A stretch of 11,848 nt of DNA from Bacteroides sp. CAG:144 (lineage in GTDB: Bacteria; Bacteroidota; Bacteroidia; Bacteroidales; UBA11471): positions 1 through 11,848 of the forward strand of contig HF999701.1 in NCBI GenBank assembly GCA_000434215.1, read 5' to 3'. Within the stretch, counting starts at the first letter, position 1. The number at the start of each line of letters is the position of its first letter. Of the stretch, positions 447 through 11,546 are shown in pieces. Both the position numbers and the translations under genes were made by a program. The notes beneath the pieces were generated by a model that searched no databases, had not been told where the DNA came from, and was given only the letters and a program-made list of their open reading frames with translations.

Positions 447-3263
447 CTAATCGATTTTTTTCATTCGACTTACACTACCGTCGGAATACAAAATCTCTTC
501 GATATAAACACCTCTCTCGGGTCTATCGATCTGTTGACCGAGCAAATTATAATAATTGACTTGTGAAATCTGCCGATAGACAGACTGCCCACCTGTTGAA
601 ACATCGGGCATTCCACTTACCAATGCCTCGACATAATCGGGCAAATAATAGCTCAAATGCGGAGGTTGGTTATAGGCCGTTGTCTGCCATACGGTCGCCA
701 TACGATAATGGTGGTCATGCATCAGCGTCGGGACACGATAGTCGCTGCTGTACGGAGTGGAAAAAATCCACAAATGACTCATCGTTTCCTCATCGTAATA
801 TATCTGTTCTTCGCGCCAGTCACCAAAAATATCAGCTTGCAGGCAAGGTGTATATTTGATGACATTCGTCCCCGCCCCGTACCGGAAAGGCATATCCACC
901 AATGTCGCTGCGCTCTGTGTGCGACCGCGCCATTTCGTTATAACACCGGTCTCAGTCATCTCCTCCTGTAAGTCTCCGTCCCAATAAGTGCGGAAATTGA
1001 CAGTGGGCCGTTTGGTCGAAATCACACTACCATCGCAACCGTACACTTCGTTGCCGGCGGTACTCCAATACTCACAACCGCGCGAATCGGCATCAACATC
1101 GGCACAAAGGCCGCGCCCCACATCGGTACCGGTAAATTTTCCCGAAATGATTTCTCCGGTCAGCGCATCATGCATCTCGACCCCGTACTTGGCCGATGTC
1201 TCCTCATGTACCATCATCACTTCCAAACCATTGCGATCGGGATCAAAGTCGCCCACATGCAATGCATCGCCATGGCCGAGTCCAGTACGATAGATTATCG
1301 TTCCGTCGTCATCGAGCGCACATGCACCAAAGATAATCTCATCGCGACCATCACCGTCGACATCGGCCGTAGCAATACTGTGTGCTCCTTCTCCGTAAGC
1401 TCCGATTCCGCCTGAAACAGAGCTATGGAGCCATTTGGTATGAAGCGACGTTCCATCAAAATCGACCGCCCATACAAACGCCGCCGTATAGTATCCTCTC
1501 GCCATCACCAAACTGGGTCGTTCACCGTCGAGATAAGCCACACACGCCAAATAACGTTCACTCCGATTTCCATAATTATCGCCCCAATTAGATATGGTAT
1601 CTCTGGACGGACGATAGGCTGTCGTCACCAATTCTTCACCCGTCAATCCGCTAAATACAGTCAAATATTCGGGACCGCTGACTACAACTCCGCTCTTACC
1701 ACCAATCACAGTACGATAATCTGCTTGCGGGTCATCTTGCCCCATCAAAACATAATTACCCAAACCGTCGACCGTCCCGGGAGCTGTTTTACAAGCTACC
1801 TCGGCTTTCCCATCGCCATCCAAATCATAAACCATCAATTGAGTGTAGTGAGCACCCGCCCGGATATTCTTACCCAAATCAATACGCCACAATTTCGTAC
1901 CGTCCATACGATACGCATCGATAAGAACATTCCCGGTATAACCCGACTCCGAATTATCTTTACGGTTAGACGGATCCCATTTCATAATCACTTCATACGT
2001 TTTATCCCCATCGACATCGGCCACCATGCAATCGCCGGGAACATAATAAAACGATCCACTCTCGGTAGTTCCTCCTGCGGGACGATCCAACGGAATATCG
2101 AGATAACCTTTGGGCAGCACCGTAACCGCAGCCATCTCTACCGACTCTCCTCCCGAGAGAGCCTCCACCGTATATACACTTCCGGAAGAACCTTCGGTAT
2201 CTAAAAAATTGGTCTTGTCGAAAAGCGGAGAATCATTGAGTTTCACTCCGTCGCGATAAACATTAAAACATATATCTTCCGGGTCATCGATGAGCCAGCG
2301 CCAATTAACCAAATAATTACTGCCGCTACCCGTATAAGTGGCAACAGCTCCCCTATCAAGGGACTCCGGGTCGAGAATCCACGGACGACCGGCAAACGGC
2401 ATAACAAGCGGTATTTCTACCGTACGCTCGGCAACTTCGGAAGTGCGCATGCCCTCTTTTATGGCGACAGCTCTTATCCGGCAAGTCCGGGTCAGATCAA
2501 ACGGTTCACTGTATGGCATGGCATAATCCCACACTTCTCCCCGATCTACCAGCGAATACCATATTGTGGCACCGGGAGTCGCGCAAGTCATGACGATACG
2601 CCGTCCCTCGACTGAGACCTCCGGTGTCGCCGTCTGTTCTCTCGTATCGGCATTTTCATGGAGAACTCCGACGCTTTGCACCACGATTCCGCCACTGTTG
2701 GTCCAACTGACATCACCATCGGATACAACCTCGAATGTATATGTCTTGAAATAGGTCGTGGGATATGTATCATATCCGCATTCACCTTTGAGATTTGTTA
2801 CCGAAGCAATACCCTGAGCCGCAGTAGATGACGACTTCATCGTTACGACGACTTTCTGTCCGGCTTTCAGCCCAGATATACCGACCGGTGCCACATTTTG
2901 CATTTGCATGCCATTCTGGCTACTACCCATATTGTATCTCAACAGCAAATTGCCCGGCTGTATGCCGCTTCCTACGATAAGACCCTCGGTCTCGGCTATA
3001 ACAACACCATTGGCTTTCAACGGGAACCCGTCGGTTACGACATTATTGGCATACCTTTGTATAGAGCCATTTTTGGACATCGGTTTCCAATGCTCGGTAT
3101 CGGCAGCCAGATTGGAAATTGTAGTAGCCTCATATTGGGCCAAGTTCCACCAACGAATCGTATCGTAGGTGATTTGGGCTTTGACGGAAACACCCGTCAA
3201 GAAGAAAATAATCGCAATGACATTTATCGTCAAAAAATTTCGATGAAGTAGAAATGTTTTCAT
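447..3263 (-). CDS. secreted rhamnogalacturonan lyase-like protein (PL11 family)
   Basis: This gene encodes a 938-residue exported protein that probably cleaves the rhamnogalacturonan I backbone of pectin by beta-elimination. Residues 1-30 form a signal peptide (positive MKTFLLHR, a hydrophobic stretch, then SVKAQ). Residues 31-200 are a beta-rich region I cannot place. Residues 212-285 resemble a chitobiase-type beta-sandwich (ATPGATIWYSL, then CRIRAVAIKEG). Residues 305-385 look like a fibronectin-III/Ig-like module. Residues 386-885 are the PL11 beta-propeller, with repeated calcium-binding loops DVDGD (416), DLDGDG (480), DVDGDG (634), DFDPDRNG (672) and DVDADSRG (722), and the family-like segments GHGDALHVGDFD and MHDHHYRMATVWQ. 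The tail (900-938: YYNLLGQQIDRPERGVYI) resembles a type IX secretion sorting sequence, though shortened. It stands alone, with no SusC/SusD pair or other glycan genes in view. Family assignment is firm; exact substrate and secretion route are inferred. Confidence 0.88.
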   Translation of the reverse strand: MKTFLLHRNFLTINVIAIIFFLTGVSVKAQITYDTIRWWNLAQYEATTISNLAADTEHWKPMSKNGSIQRYANNVVTDGFPLKANGVVIAETEGLIVGSGIQPGNLLLRYNMGSSQNGMQMQNVAPVGISGLKAGQKVVVTMKSSSTAAQGIASVTNLKGECGYDTYPTTYFKTYTFEVVSDGDVSWTNSGGIVVQSVGVLHENADTREQTATPEVSVEGRRIVMTCATPGATIWYSLVDRGEVWDYAMPYSEPFDLTRTCRIRAVAIKEGMRTSEVAERTVEIPLVMPFAGRPWILDPESLDRGAVATYTGSGSNYLVNWRWLIDDPEDICFNVYRDGVKLNDSPLFDKTNFLDTEGSSGSVYTVEALSGGESVEMAAVTVLPKGYLDIPLDRPAGGTTESGSFYYVPGDCMVADVDGDKTYEVIMKWDPSNRKDNSESGYTGNVLIDAYRMDGTKLWRIDLGKNIRAGAHYTQLMVYDLDGDGKAEVACKTAPGTVDGLGNYVLMGQDDPQADYRTVIGGKSGVVVSGPEYLTVFSGLTGEELVTTAYRPSRDTISNWGDNYGNRSERYLACVAYLDGERPSLVMARGYYTAAFVWAVDFDGTSLHTKWLHSSVSGGIGAYGEGAHSIATADVDGDGRDEIIFGACALDDDGTIIYRTGLGHGDALHVGDFDPDRNGLEVMMVHEETSAKYGVEMHDALTGEIISGKFTGTDVGRGLCADVDADSRGCEYWSTAGNEVYGCDGSVISTKRPTVNFRTYWDGDLQEEMTETGVITKWRGRTQSAATLVDMPFRYGAGTNVIKYTPCLQADIFGDWREEQIYYDEETMSHLWIFSTPYSSDYRVPTLMHDHHYRMATVWQTTAYNQPPHLSYYLPDYVEALVSGMPDVSTGGQSVYRQISQVNYYNLLGQQIDRPERGVYIEEILYSDGSVSRMKKID

Positions 3264-5349: not shown

Positions 5350-6078
5350 TTAACGGGACTTTATTGTATAAAACACTTTATCGATAAATTTCTCATAATC
5401 ATTAATTATGACAGCTCCACCATCTTTAATTTGCGGATATTGATGCATCGTTAACTTCATAAAAGGTTCGTTCAACTTATAATACTCAAAGTACTTTTCT
5501 TTACTATCAATTTGTTGCTCATCAACTTCCGGCAATACTTGTACCACATAAATCAACGTCTTATTCGGCGTATGCAGAAATACATCAATGTCGTCATTCG
5601 ACATTGTACAATACTTGATAATATTATGGTCTGTAAATTCTTCCCATTTCGACAACTCACCATTATTTTTATAATAAGGTAACTTTTCAAGAATTATAAA
5701 TATTTGAAAATAAGGGCATTTTGAAGCCCTTATATTTGCTGTTTCACCCAACATATTCTCAAAATAATTATTTGAATTTTGAGAATAATTTTGCATAACA
5801 AATTTTACGGCCACACCCGCAACGGGTCTGGCAGACTCCTTTTCAACAACAGTAATATCAACCTTTTTATTTATATAACGACCTCTTATGACAGCTTCAC
5901 TATCATCGCCATAACCTTGCGATTTTATGATATAAGCATCGCCTAAACGTTGAGCTAAATCTTCAGCAATCGCACCATGAAGAGGCTTGAGTTTAGCCGT
6001 ACTACGAGATGTCCCGATCTGTATAAAAGATTTAAACGAATTCAAAATACTGCCCAAGAAAAGTTGATTTGTTAGCAT
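5350..6078 (-). CDS. probable type II restriction endonuclease (PD-(D/E)xK-like), partner of the adjacent methyltransferase
   Basis: This is a 242-residue protein, a usual size for a type II endonuclease, lying directly downstream of an adenine methyltransferase and overlapping it by 47 nt in another frame. I do not recognise its specificity family. A plausible nuclease core is E39 in a helix (HGAIAEDLAQRL), D74 in a strand (KKVDITVV) and K92 in the next strand (GVAVKF). The usual acid two before the lysine is alanine (A90), while E107 and E112 follow in a well-ordered segment (NNYFENMLGETANIR, 103-117). That layout recalls Cfr10I/NgoMIV-type enzymes with a displaced glutamate. No other ATG upstream of the core offers a start. 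The gene is visibly more AT-rich than its neighbours, suggesting transfer. Function rests mainly on context, and the core assignment is inference. Confidence 0.7.
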   Translation of the reverse strand: MLTNQLFLGSILNSFKSFIQIGTSRSTAKLKPLHGAIAEDLAQRLGDAYIIKSQGYGDDSEAVIRGRYINKKVDITVVEKESARPVAGVAVKFVMQNYSQNSNNYFENMLGETANIRASKCPYFQIFIILEKLPYYKNNGELSKWEEFTDHNIIKYCTMSNDDIDVFLHTPNKTLIYVVQVLPEVDEQQIDSKEKYFEYYKLNEPFMKLTMHQYPQIKDGGAVIINDYEKFIDKVFYTIKSR

Positions 6079-7519
6079 ATTTATTGTCTGATTTGTAGCT
6101 TATATACCAATTTATGTATTGTTCTACGTCTTTGGTGTTGTAGGTGTAATATCCGCCGCTTTTGTATTTTTTTAGGAGTTTTATGTAGTCGGCAAATTGG
6201 GGTGTTTCGAGGATTTGCTTGATGTCTTCGAGGGGTATGCCGTCGTGGGTTATGGCATATAGCCCGCTGTATATGCCTTCTCCTTTGGAGACGTATTCTA
6301 TTTTCAAGTCTTTTTCTGTCCTCAACAAGGTGTTTATAGAGAGTTTATCCTTGTACACGTCTTGCAGGGCTTGTGTGCGTCCAAATTGATACCATGCAGG
6401 GTGTTCTTTTCGACCTTTTAGGAGTTCGTCTTTGTGTGCTTGCAGGTAATCGGCGACTTGTTTTTCAGAGAAGATTTTGTCGGGTGGTAGGGGTTTGCCT
6501 TTTTCGTCGTAAGGGAACAAGCATTTGTACTTTTTTCCCGTAGAGGCTTTTAGGGCTTTTATGGTTATGGTTGATTCGGGTACATCTTCTCCGATGAATA
6601 TGTTGTCGGCCAGTGTCGCGAATCCGTTTTTGACGGTTACGAGTCTGGGGGGAGTACTTGTTTTTATGCTCCGCAATGTGTCGAGGTGTTCTTTGTCGGA
6701 GAGGTAAAGGATTCCGTCGATACAGCTGTCTTGGAGTGATAGGTTAGCTACATGGTTTCTTTGTCGCGTTTCGCTATTGAAAGTGTAGTAATCGAATCGG
6801 TCTGATTGCTTGTCGTTGGAGAATAGGGAGATTATCGTGTAGGCTGTTACGTGGGGGAAAGGCTGGTAGTGCCCTAAATCGACGAGGGAGATTATGTTTC
6901 TTTTCTCCATAACATGGTTGCGCATATTACGGGCGGCTACGCTGCTGAGCCATGAGGAGGGTGTTATGTAGCATAGTTTGCCTGACGGGTTGAGCATATT
7001 GAACCCAAGCTCGAAGAAAGCAAGGTACAAATCGGTCATGCCTCCGTTGGCGAATCTGTATTGTTTTACTTCGTCGTAGGTTTCTTGGAGATTATGGACA
7101 CGGACGTAGGGCGGGTTTCCTACGACGTAATCTATTTTTCCGTCGTAGGTTTTTACCGCCAAAGCGTCTTGGTTATGTATGTCCCATGCTACGTTTTTTA
7201 TTTTGTATCGGTTTACGACTTTTTCTAAGTTGGCCTTACAGTTTTCGTAGGCTTCTTTGTCGGTGTCGATACCGTGTATGTAGCACTCAAGGTGTGTTTT
7301 TATTTCTCGGCTGTTTTTTCCGGCACGGAGTGCTTCTTCGCAATATCTTTTTACGGCGACTTGTAGGAACGCTCCGTCTCCGCAACTGTTGTCGATGATA
7401 TGTTTTTCTATGATCGCGGTATTTTTGTACCCGGCATAGTCCAACATTTCTTCTACCAGATATTGCGGTGTGAAAACTTGTCCGATGTTTTTAGACCTTA
7501 TCTTTTCTTTTTTCTCCAT
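6032..7519 (-). CDS. type II N6-adenine DNA methyltransferase (gamma class, TaqI/Eco57I-like)
   Basis: This 495-residue enzyme transfers a methyl group from S-adenosylmethionine to adenine N6 in a target site, protecting host DNA from the adjacent endonuclease. Motif order is that of gamma-class enzymes: motif X GQVFTP (13-18), motif I DNSCGDGAFL (43-52), the acidic GIDTD (83-87), motif III NQDAL (116-120), and catalytic motif IV NPPY (135-138), followed by FANGGMTDLYLAFFE and ITPSSWLSS. The C-terminal half (about 285-495) is the target-recognition domain, with a TaqI-like VKNGFATLADNIFI (296-309) and GGYYTYNTKDVEQYINWY (455-472). The start is the only ATG before motif X. Only 32 nt separate it from rfbC, with no terminator or clear promoter between, so it is probably transcribed from upstream. 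No controller (C) protein gene is present. The DNA site recognised cannot be deduced here. Confidence 0.92.
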   Translation of the reverse strand: MEKKEKIRSKNIGQVFTPQYLVEEMLDYAGYKNTAIIEKHIIDNSCGDGAFLQVAVKRYCEEALRAGKNSREIKTHLECYIHGIDTDKEAYENCKANLEKVVNRYKIKNVAWDIHNQDALAVKTYDGKIDYVVGNPPYVRVHNLQETYDEVKQYRFANGGMTDLYLAFFELGFNMLNPSGKLCYITPSSWLSSVAARNMRNHVMEKRNIISLVDLGHYQPFPHVTAYTIISLFSNDKQSDRFDYYTFNSETRQRNHVANLSLQDSCIDGILYLSDKEHLDTLRSIKTSTPPRLVTVKNGFATLADNIFIGEDVPESTITIKALKASTGKKYKCLFPYDEKGKPLPPDKIFSEKQVADYLQAHKDELLKGRKEHPAWYQFGRTQALQDVYKDKLSINTLLRTEKDLKIEYVSKGEGIYSGLYAITHDGIPLEDIKQILETPQFADYIKLLKKYKSGGYYTYNTKDVEQYINWYISYKSDNKYANKSTFLGQYFEFV

Positions 7520-9684: not shown

Positions 9685-10341
9685 TCATCTCTGCATCGGC
9701 ACAACCATAGCGGAAACAGGATAGACCCGGGACATCAGACCGGAAAGGCATTGCATCTTTCCACGGATCTGCCGATGCACAAAAAGCTCTCCTCTCCGCT
9801 CGTATAAAAGAAAAGAATACTCGCCCGGAGTACCCTCCAAACGGAAAAGCGGAGAATAATGCCGAAGTAAATATAAAAAATCGAGATCACCCATTTCATA
9901 TCCCCGCTCCTCATAATGCTGTAAAGAAACATCTCCTTCGACATTATGAAAACACAACGCACACGACGGGTGCTCCCGCAAATACTCTCCCTGACGTTGT
10001 AATTTACCAGAGTCGTTCCACCGCTCATAATCCCGACACACGATGACATAACGGCTGCGTACCTCGGCTCCGGGACTACCGAATGCGATGTATCGCTCGG
10101 GATTACGACGATAGCGGAGACGATGCGGATAAAAACTTGTATGACGACGGCATAATCGTTCTATTTCGTCGGTCGACGAACGGTCGACAACTATCACTTC
10201 GGTCTCGAACGTCGTACTTTGTTTCATCAACGTATCGAGACACTTCTCGCAATCATACACCCGACGGGCTATCAACACGACCGATACCAAAGGGGTTATG
10301 TGAACAGGATAATTCGGGGAAAAATAAGAGAGTCCATTCAT
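9685..10341 (-). CDS. short GT2-like glycosyltransferase with diverged acidic motifs
   Basis: A 218-residue protein with a GT-A fold signature of glycosyltransferase family 2. The start is MNGLSYFSPN at 10341, 11 nt after the ACP-like stop; the longer frame from 10515 only runs over that gene. The pattern is PLVSVVLIARR (17-27), a D53 acid in VIVVDRSSTDE (49-59), and KLQRQGEYLREHPSCALCF (113-131), which matches the segment after the metal-binding motif in the Bacteroidales GT2 group that usually reads EGDDYW...KLQKQ. Here that motif is C-R-D-Y-E-R-W (102-108), so the acidic pair is displaced to D104-x-E106 and its metal binding is uncertain. It ends at 218 residues, with no C-terminal domain or membrane segment. 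Likely a diverged sugar transferase; acceptor and donor are unknown, and activity is not assured. Confidence 0.65.
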   Translation of the reverse strand: MNGLSYFSPNYPVHITPLVSVVLIARRVYDCEKCLDTLMKQSTTFETEVIVVDRSSTDEIERLCRRHTSFYPHRLRYRRNPERYIAFGSPGAEVRSRYVIVCRDYERWNDSGKLQRQGEYLREHPSCALCFHNVEGDVSLQHYEERGYEMGDLDFLYLLRHYSPLFRLEGTPGEYSFLLYERRGELFVHRQIRGKMQCLSGLMSRVYPVSAMVVPMQR

Positions 10342-10352
10342 AAACTTATCAT

Positions 10353-10613
10353 TTAAATGACAAATGCAGGAACAAGCATTTGCCGCTTTTTCGACAATAC
10401 ACACCGATAAAGATCTGAAATCGTTTCGGCCTCTCCGAAATCGGTTGCATCGAGTTGTACCCCGTACCGTTCCCGAATAACCGACGAGAGCGTTACCGCC
10501 AATATCATATTCCATTCACGAAGACTCTTGTAACGTGTTTCTCCCGACAAGTTACAGGGCGAAGTACAATAAAACAAAGATGCCACACAACGCACAAATT
10601 CTCTTTCTTCCAT
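10353..10613 (-). CDS. acyl-carrier-protein-like small protein lacking the phosphopantetheine serine
   Basis: This 86-residue protein has the shape of the ACP-like carriers of Bacteroidales: an N-terminal helix (MEEREFVRCVASLFY), a TRYKSLREW run (26-34), a helix 2 (ILAVTLSSVIRERYGVQL, 37-54), and DFGEAETISDLYRCV (58-72) as helices 3 and 4. In normal carriers the segment after LxEW reads D-S-L, with the serine bearing 4'-phosphopantetheine. Here it is N35-M36-I37, and the DNA codons AAT ATG ATA confirm this. It therefore cannot be charged at the usual site. It sits 11 nt before the GT2-like gene, so the two are surely cotranscribed. It could be a non-catalytic adaptor or a decaying carrier. 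The fold call is by pattern only. Its start codon lies within a hairpin. Confidence 0.6.
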   Translation of the reverse strand: MEEREFVRCVASLFYCTSPCNLSGETRYKSLREWNMILAVTLSSVIRERYGVQLDATDFGEAETISDLYRCVLSKKRQMLVPAFVI

Positions 10614-10889: not shown

Positions 10890-11546
10890 TTATCCTCGTT
10901 CGTAAATATCCAATATCTCATACGGCGAATCGACCAAATAACCGGCTCCTGCACATTCGAGTTCTTCCCGCGAACGGAAACCCCATGCCACACCCACCGA
11001 AAGAACCCGTGCCGCAGCGGCCGTCTGCATATCGACACCCGAATCGCCGACATACAACACCTCGTCAGCTTCGACCGGCGCCTTCGCCAAAATATCGTAT
11101 ACGATTGTAGGATCGGGCTTTACCGGTATCCCTTCCCGCTGACCGAGTACGGAAATAAATTTTATCTTCGGGAAAAAATGTGCGACCAATTTTTCTGTCG
11201 CTTGCTGGTATTTATTCGACGCAACAGCCAACAGCGCTCCCCGCCGCTGCAATTCGGCAAGGAGTTCGGGCATACCTTCATAAGGCCGCGTGCGACATAC
11301 ATTGTGGCTGTCGTAATACGGTACGAAAAATGAACGCATGCGGGCAATATGCTCTGCCGAACGTGCATTCTCGGGCAAAGCCCGTTCAAAAAGTTTTGCG
11401 ATTCCGTTCCCTACAAACATATTATATTCTTCGACCGCATGTTGCGGGTAACCACATTGTTCCAGTGCGTAATTGGTCGCTTCGGCCAAATCACCTATGG
11501 TATTCAACAATGTCCCGTCCAAATCGAAAATAACCAATCGTTTCAT
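10890..11546 (-). CDS. gph: HAD-family phosphatase, phosphoglycolate phosphatase-like
   Basis: A 218-residue cytoplasmic HAD hydrolase that probably dephosphorylates 2-phosphoglycolate, a by-product of DNA 3'-end repair, or a related small phosphoester. All four HAD motifs are present: the nucleophile D8 and acid D10 in FDLDGTLLNT (7-16), motif II S110-N111 in AVASNK, lysine K143 in PVKPDP, and D168/D172 in YVGDSGVDMQTA (165-176). The helical cap lies about 16-85 (GDLAEATNYALEQCGY, FVGNGI), as in Gph. A Shine-Dalgarno-like AGGAAAGAG precedes the ATG. It has its own promoter and no clear terminator, so transcription may run on into the ACP-like and GT2 genes. Substrate range within this subgroup is broad, so gph is the best but not certain name. 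Confidence 0.87.
   Translation of the reverse strand: MKRLVIFDLDGTLLNTIGDLAEATNYALEQCGYPQHAVEEYNMFVGNGIAKLFERALPENARSAEHIARMRSFFVPYYDSHNVCRTRPYEGMPELLAELQRRGALLAVASNKYQQATEKLVAHFFPKIKFISVLGQREGIPVKPDPTIVYDILAKAPVEADEVLYVGDSGVDMQTAAAARVLSVGVAWGFRSREELECAGAGYLVDSPYEILDIYERG

Follow-up and report, generated by a model that had tools for sequence, protein, structure and literature searches.

Acyl carrier protein-like proteins of Bacteroidales with a hydrophobic residue in place of the phosphopantetheine serine may act as non-carrier adaptors or regulators

What does a protein with the fold of an acyl carrier protein (ACP) do when the serine that should receive the phosphopantetheine arm is missing? 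This question is raised by a small open reading frame (ORF) of Bacteroides sp. CAG:144, located in positions 1 to 11,848 of contig HF999701.1 (assembly GCA_000434215.1), the whole 11,848-nucleotide stretch being called the window hereafter. The frame and its critical codon are placed as follows:

10353..10613, minus strand: serine-less ACP-like protein of 86 amino acids (aa), from the translated ORF, a PF00550 match and the predicted fold
10506..10508 (read 10508 to 10506), minus strand: codon 36, ATG (Met), at the phosphopantetheine-serine position, from the nucleotide letters and alignments

Our results lead us to propose, with modest confidence, that the window protein is a non-carrier ACP-fold adaptor or regulator, belonging to a clade of stand-alone proteins found in four Bacteroidales families. 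No paper on a serine-less ACP-fold family or its cassette was found in one open-access library with short-phrase queries, for which absence is weak evidence.

The methionine lies in the series E33-W34-N35-M36-I37, within the stretch LREWNMILAV of the translated frame. A reading made from the sequence alone (hereafter the sequence-only reading) had placed it where the serine belongs and had recognized an ACP-like fold, and both statements are supported, the fold by prediction. Indeed, codon 36 is ATG, and the corresponding column carries serine in 28/28 Ser-bearing rows of one alignment to the window protein and in 60/60 Ser-bearing relatives of a second one, confirming that Met36, where helix II begins, stands in the place of the phosphopantetheine serine. 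The structure model of the window protein is confident and shows a predicted four-helix, ACP-like fold (predicted local distance difference test, pLDDT, 89). The protein also matches PF00550 (PP-binding) with 22.6 bits (cutoff 20.8), the alignment spanning only residues 37–72 (profile positions 32–67) and thus beginning just past the serine site. PF00550 matches 19 of 26 clade members at E up to 0.1; it gives 17.3 bits, below its cutoff, with the L003 protein, and the L001 protein has no Pfam match at E up to 1. Compared with the ACP / PP-binding fold, the clade shares the predicted four helices, sequence homology and the sequence frame of ACPs (LxEW ahead of the core and DL[Y/F] behind it), but it lacks the attachment serine, carries a hydrophobic residue there and is less acidic. 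The protein is classed as working like an ACP-fold subunit and not as a carrier, since the test for the defining serine showed it to be missing.

How widespread is this replacement? A first scan of named genomes, which used EWNMILAV as one search word and is biased if taken alone, gave four loci in metagenome-assembled genomes (MAGs) of uncultured Bacteroidales, with 54–70% identity and EWNMILAV in all of them. A profile made of the window protein and these four loci was then run against 393 genomes of the order and matched 95 places within 85 genomes. The critical residue was determined at all 95 matches, 30 with a locus and 65 lacking one: serine is present in 80 and absent in 15 (G001–G004, G072, G262, G212, G294, G113, G064, G357, G092, G170, G193 and G330, the last copy, L066, being a contig-end fragment), where M, V, I, F, L or Y stands instead. 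The 14 full serine-less matches are the 14 top-scoring matches of the profile (E up to 5.3e-15). Family-wide searches in four small Bacteroidales families, designated A to D in this analysis, found the serine-less gene in 6/7 genomes of A, 9/9 of B, 4/5 of C (including the G330 fragment) and 2/3 of D. The expectation that the serine loss would prove conserved in several species once genome hits were aligned at residue 36 is thus borne out across four families. In a phylum-wide draw of 395 genomes, the nine matches at E up to 1e-9 were the clade member G262 and eight Ser-bearing ACPs. Independent loss of the serine elsewhere was considered and rejected: among 65 weaker matches lacking a locus, 64 have serine and the remaining one, from G330, is the contig-end fragment of the clade. 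Note that P0023, identical to the G064 copy, is publicly named acyl carrier protein (Coprobacter tertius), and this plain name probably gives the wrong function.

The main tree comprised 59 rows, of which 31 are serine-less (10 drawn from the 55 proteins P0010–P0064) and 28 are Ser-bearing. All serine-less rows fall on one side of a branch with a support of 97/99, a value to be taken with caution because the columns are few. The support is 96 (Shimodaira–Hasegawa-like approximate likelihood ratio test, SH-aLRT, quick tree) when the serine column is removed, and 100/99 when this column and three long-branch rows are removed. As judged from these trees, the serine-less proteins are a single clade present in four families, which may have been inherited vertically. 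Within the clade, the serine site underwent at least seven changes, every one among M, V, I, L, F and Y. The site is hydrophobic in all 21 full-length genomic sequences (F 8, M 5, L 4, I 2, V 1 and Y 1), and among 61 database relatives, EWN is present in 54, the next residue being Y (16), L (15), F (13), M (5) or I (5); in the other seven, the EWN motif is gone through an internal deletion or a truncated start.

Could the protein simply be a decaying remnant, that is, an ACP that lost its serine and has been drifting since the loss of its biosynthetic cluster? Simple decay is disfavoured because the ratio of nonsynonymous to synonymous substitution rates (dN/dS) is low, with values of 0.04–0.19 in 13 of 15 pairs; the two other pairs are saturated, and their ratios of nonsynonymous to synonymous differences per site (pN/pS) are 0.29 and 0.20. 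In addition, full-length frames occur in 20 distinct genomic sequences and in the window, the site has stayed hydrophobic through all its changes, and the gene is kept in most searched genomes of the four families, in agreement with the sequence-only reading, which had argued from intact length against simple decay. Several observations nevertheless weigh against our interpretation. In a motif-spacing test, 27 of the 61 database entries, which together hold 70 of the 735 member sequences, proved altered by deletion, shortening, a frameshift or a different start; P0055, shortened to 51 aa, is one of them but counts 21 members, with contigs of up to 66,581 bases, and broken copies may be present in some populations. 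Decay would also fit the absence of the GT2-like (glycosyltransferase family 2) and AsnB-like neighbours in some lineages and the loss of catalytic motifs in the AsnB-like protein of family B (both described below). By the same test, however, 34 entries, holding 665 of the 735 member sequences, show no alteration between T17 and L68, and the majority of the 27 altered entries are singletons on short contigs that look like assembly errors, an explanation that fits P0055 poorly. The count of altered entries led us to raise the probability of decay slightly, and we still hold it to be very unlikely. Among the shortened relatives, P0055, P0044, P0050 and P0051 have 21, 7, 7 and 6 member sequences, respectively, and may be true broken alleles or assembly errors. 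P0008, P0052, P0054 and P0056–P0058 carry differing in-frame internal deletions, with a single member each and contigs of 1,023–2,383 bases; these deletions are probably assembly errors at short repeats.

The clade differs from its Ser-bearing cousins at more than a single residue. Asparagine 35 is present in 31/31 clade rows, the 28 cousins having S (17), N (5), D (5) or G (1); F or L occupies position 38 in 31/31 clade rows; and at positions 15–16, the mostly acidic pair of the cousins is replaced in the clade by Y/F followed by R/K/C/H. The charge is also changed. The strongly acidic character of ACPs is not found in the window protein (isoelectric point, pI, 6.23; charge −0.5), and the median pI is 5.09 in the clade (range 4.45–9.30, 31 rows) compared to 4.17 in the 28 Ser-bearing rows, with median net charges of −3.4 and −10.4, respectively, although some family-B members are still acidic. 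These residues bear on the idea that the protein is still a carrier, with the cofactor or an acyl group attached to another residue such as the conserved Ser/Thr 41 or Thr17. Position 41 is indeed S in 25 and T in 6 of the 31 clade rows, and T17, T26 and T64 are invariant. However, the Ser-bearing cousins also have S41 (14/28) and T17 (21/28), so neither site is new, and position 41 lies, in the model, within helix II, five residues beyond the known attachment point. Phosphopantetheinyl transferases modify the serine at the start of helix II and prefer acidic ACPs, whereas the clade is less acidic. We thus consider an alternative attachment site highly unlikely.

If the protein is not a carrier, it would more plausibly work as an interaction partner, the role that we favour. 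The ACP fold would have been kept while the start of the swinging arm was replaced by a bulky hydrophobic residue; the protein would dock on a partner via its helix-II face, carrying no acyl group, and residue 36 would form part of the contact. Comparable cases can be recognized in known systems. Inactive carrier domains inside polyketide synthases (PKS) and nonribosomal peptide synthetases (NRPS) have a carrier fold lacking a usable serine, but these belong to large enzymes, whereas the serine-less clade is free-standing. AcpM with Emb and MmpL5 proteins offers a precedent known by Protein Data Bank (PDB) titles only. The mitochondrial ACP, described as a structural subunit in an Fe-S complex (PMC4991935), is a works-like precedent of an ACP serving as a stable subunit of another machine. 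Since serine defines carrier proteins, a selected clade with a hydrophobic residue in its place suggests that bacteria can recruit the ACP fold for interaction alone, and provides a natural system for asking what the ACP recognition face does when it lacks the arm.

The nearest aligned cousins are Ser-bearing ACPs of Bacteroidota surface-polysaccharide clusters (e.g., L016, L067 and L068), which have a similar length and the E-W-x-S-[L/I] frame. These cousins retain serine, and genes for ketoacyl-ACP synthase III (KASIII) and/or short-chain dehydrogenase/reductase (SDR) adjoin L016 and, by eye, L067–L073; unlike them, the serine-less genes have no KASIII seen by eye beside them in 21 readable contexts. 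An SDR-like gene lies 1.2–3.1 kb upstream on the opposite strand in L001, L047 and L055, adjoining a mannonate-dehydratase-like gene. This comparison bears on a further possibility, in which the protein is a decoy or inhibitor of the enzymes of ordinary ACPs, acting for example as a brake on fatty-acid or polysaccharide acyl transfer. A predicted ACP fold retained without its attachment serine speaks for a decoy, but the lost acidic charge would weaken binding to these enzymes, and the neighbours are by eye GT-like and AsnB-like rather than fatty-acid genes; we regard a decoy as distinctly unlikely.

Which partner could the protein then have? In the window, the neighbouring genes are the following:

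9685..10341, minus strand: short GT2-like protein (P0002) of 218 aa, starting 11 nt past the ACP-like stop codon and absent beside some relatives
10890..11546, minus strand: HAD-type (haloacid dehalogenase) phosphatase-like gene, upstream (label by eye), with a similar upstream neighbour in L001, L047, L055 and L066
8117..9520, minus strand: Peptidase C1-like gene (PF03051), the same downstream neighbour by eye in L001, L047 and L090
7552..8100, minus strand: rfbC-like gene (label by eye), which recurs downstream in L001, L047, L090, nine family-B loci and L052

The 21 readable contexts are those of the window, of G001, G072, G783 and G002–G004 in family A, of nine family-B genomes, of G262, G064 and G170 in C, and of G092 and G193 in D. 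Directly downstream follows a short GT2-like gene in six contexts (the window, G001, G072, G262, G092 and G193), a longer glycosyltransferase-like gene in two (G064 and G170, label by eye) and an AsnB-like gene in nine (family B), and in the remaining four (G783 and G002–G004), the ACP-like gene adjoins neither. A conserved GT2 partner, as considered in the sequence-only reading, is thus not supported in that form; its notion of a scaffold or regulator remains plausible, and the link with the adjacent GT2 receives support in part, from 6 of the 21 contexts. Among ten genomes searched with the window GT2, only G001, G072 and G262 gave matches, and none was found at E up to 0.001 in G783, G002, G003 and G004; GT2 as an obligatory partner was therefore ruled out, single absences being weak evidence as genome completeness is not given.

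In 12 of the 21 contexts, an AsnB-like gene is found at a distance of at most ~3.3 kb, the G170 contig stopping short of that region, and the deeper association of the ACP-like gene is with this gene, whose catalytic motifs are degenerate in one family. Both Cys2 and SGGxDS are retained in the AsnB-like proteins of G262, G064 and G092 (L048, L052 and L054; families C and D). In family B, the AsnB-like genes are placed between the ACP-like gene, which they follow directly, and rfbC-like, and their proteins (L049–L051, L053 and L091–L095) have lost the SGGxDS loop in 9/9 cases (e.g., LDGGVESA) and have Ser for Cys2 in 5/9. Two of them score 222.6 and 220.3, under the TIGR01536 cutoff of 267.1, compared to 328.5 and 337.2 for two intact ones. 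An AsnB-like profile matched 12 of the 393 genomes at E up to 1e-90, and in five of these (G312, G235, G139, G375 and G025), the AsnB relative stands beside rpsL with no ACP-like gene ahead. In G001–G004, G072 and G193, no AsnB-like paralogue was found, only a 38–39% match to the first 166–167 residues. AsnB-like as an obligatory partner was ruled out by its absence from these six genomes (the same caution on single absences applies) and by the five with a relative but no ACP-like gene. The relatives at the rpsL-rpsG-fusA locus (L108–L112) all lack Cys2, and the SGGxDS loop is missing in the four printed (L108, L109, L110 and L112); from its sequence, the rpsL-locus protein is an apparent second, separately kept pseudoenzyme.

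These losses invite the hypothesis of a pseudoenzyme cassette, in which the ACP-like, GT-like and AsnB-like proteins would jointly sense or regulate envelope sugar or glutamine supply. The degenerate motifs and low scores of family B agree with it, as does the GT2-like protein, since the window GT2 and six relatives have CRDxERW where a plain DxD is expected. However, in three genomes of families C and D the AsnB-like protein retains its motifs, and the cassette thus does not consist of pseudoenzymes throughout; nor is the GT2-like protein called dead, because a shift of one residue brings its DxD region into register as D-x-E. We find this hypothesis quite unlikely. Note that the window GT2 has a homologue in the GT2-like protein of G092 (31% identity, E 2e-31) and that PF00535 matches the window GT2 with 32 bits (cutoff 23.3), while the L001 homologue has no Pfam match at E up to 1; the GT2 structure model is poor (pLDDT 57.1). 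A defence reading of the cassette was dropped, as PADLOC gave no match for the ACP-like, the GT2-like and two AsnB-like proteins.

The cassette members are linked yet separable: most lineages associate the ACP-like gene with a glycosyltransferase-like gene, an AsnB-like gene or both, but it can exist without both others. The non-carrier adaptor or regulator proposed here most likely had the AsnB-like amidotransferase and/or the adjacent glycosyltransferase-like protein as its ancestral partner. Since family A lacks both neighbours in some genomes, neither can be the sole partner, and some members of the window's own family must have a partner other than an AsnB-like or GT-like protein. A bolder version, which we consider unlikely, would have residue 36 as a genetically encoded mimic of the acyl-phosphopantetheine arm, plugging the arm tunnel of the partner and making the protein a permanently 'loaded-looking' regulatory subunit, of the AsnB-like/GT cassette at first (since partly pseudoenzymatic) and of other partners now.

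Upstream of the ACP-like gene, none of the three sites of the window with a Bacteroidetes-type promoter pattern was found, all three being on the plus strand, and an Rfam scan of the window gave no match reaching the gathering score. Elsewhere in the window, a type II DNA methyltransferase (PADLOC PDLC03315, E 2.5e-150) is encoded at 5350–7519 (minus strand) between the rfbC-like and dxs-like genes (labels by eye), together with an overlapping 242-aa protein that has no Pfam or PADLOC match and is perhaps its restriction partner. This segment looks like an inserted restriction-modification system because the rfbC-like and dxs-like genes are adjacent in L001 and L047. Finally, a Rhamnogalacturonan lyase family 11 protein (PF21348) of 938 aa is encoded at 447–3263 (minus strand), and a long protein with similar opening residues is found downstream of rfbC-like in L090 and past dxs-like in L001.
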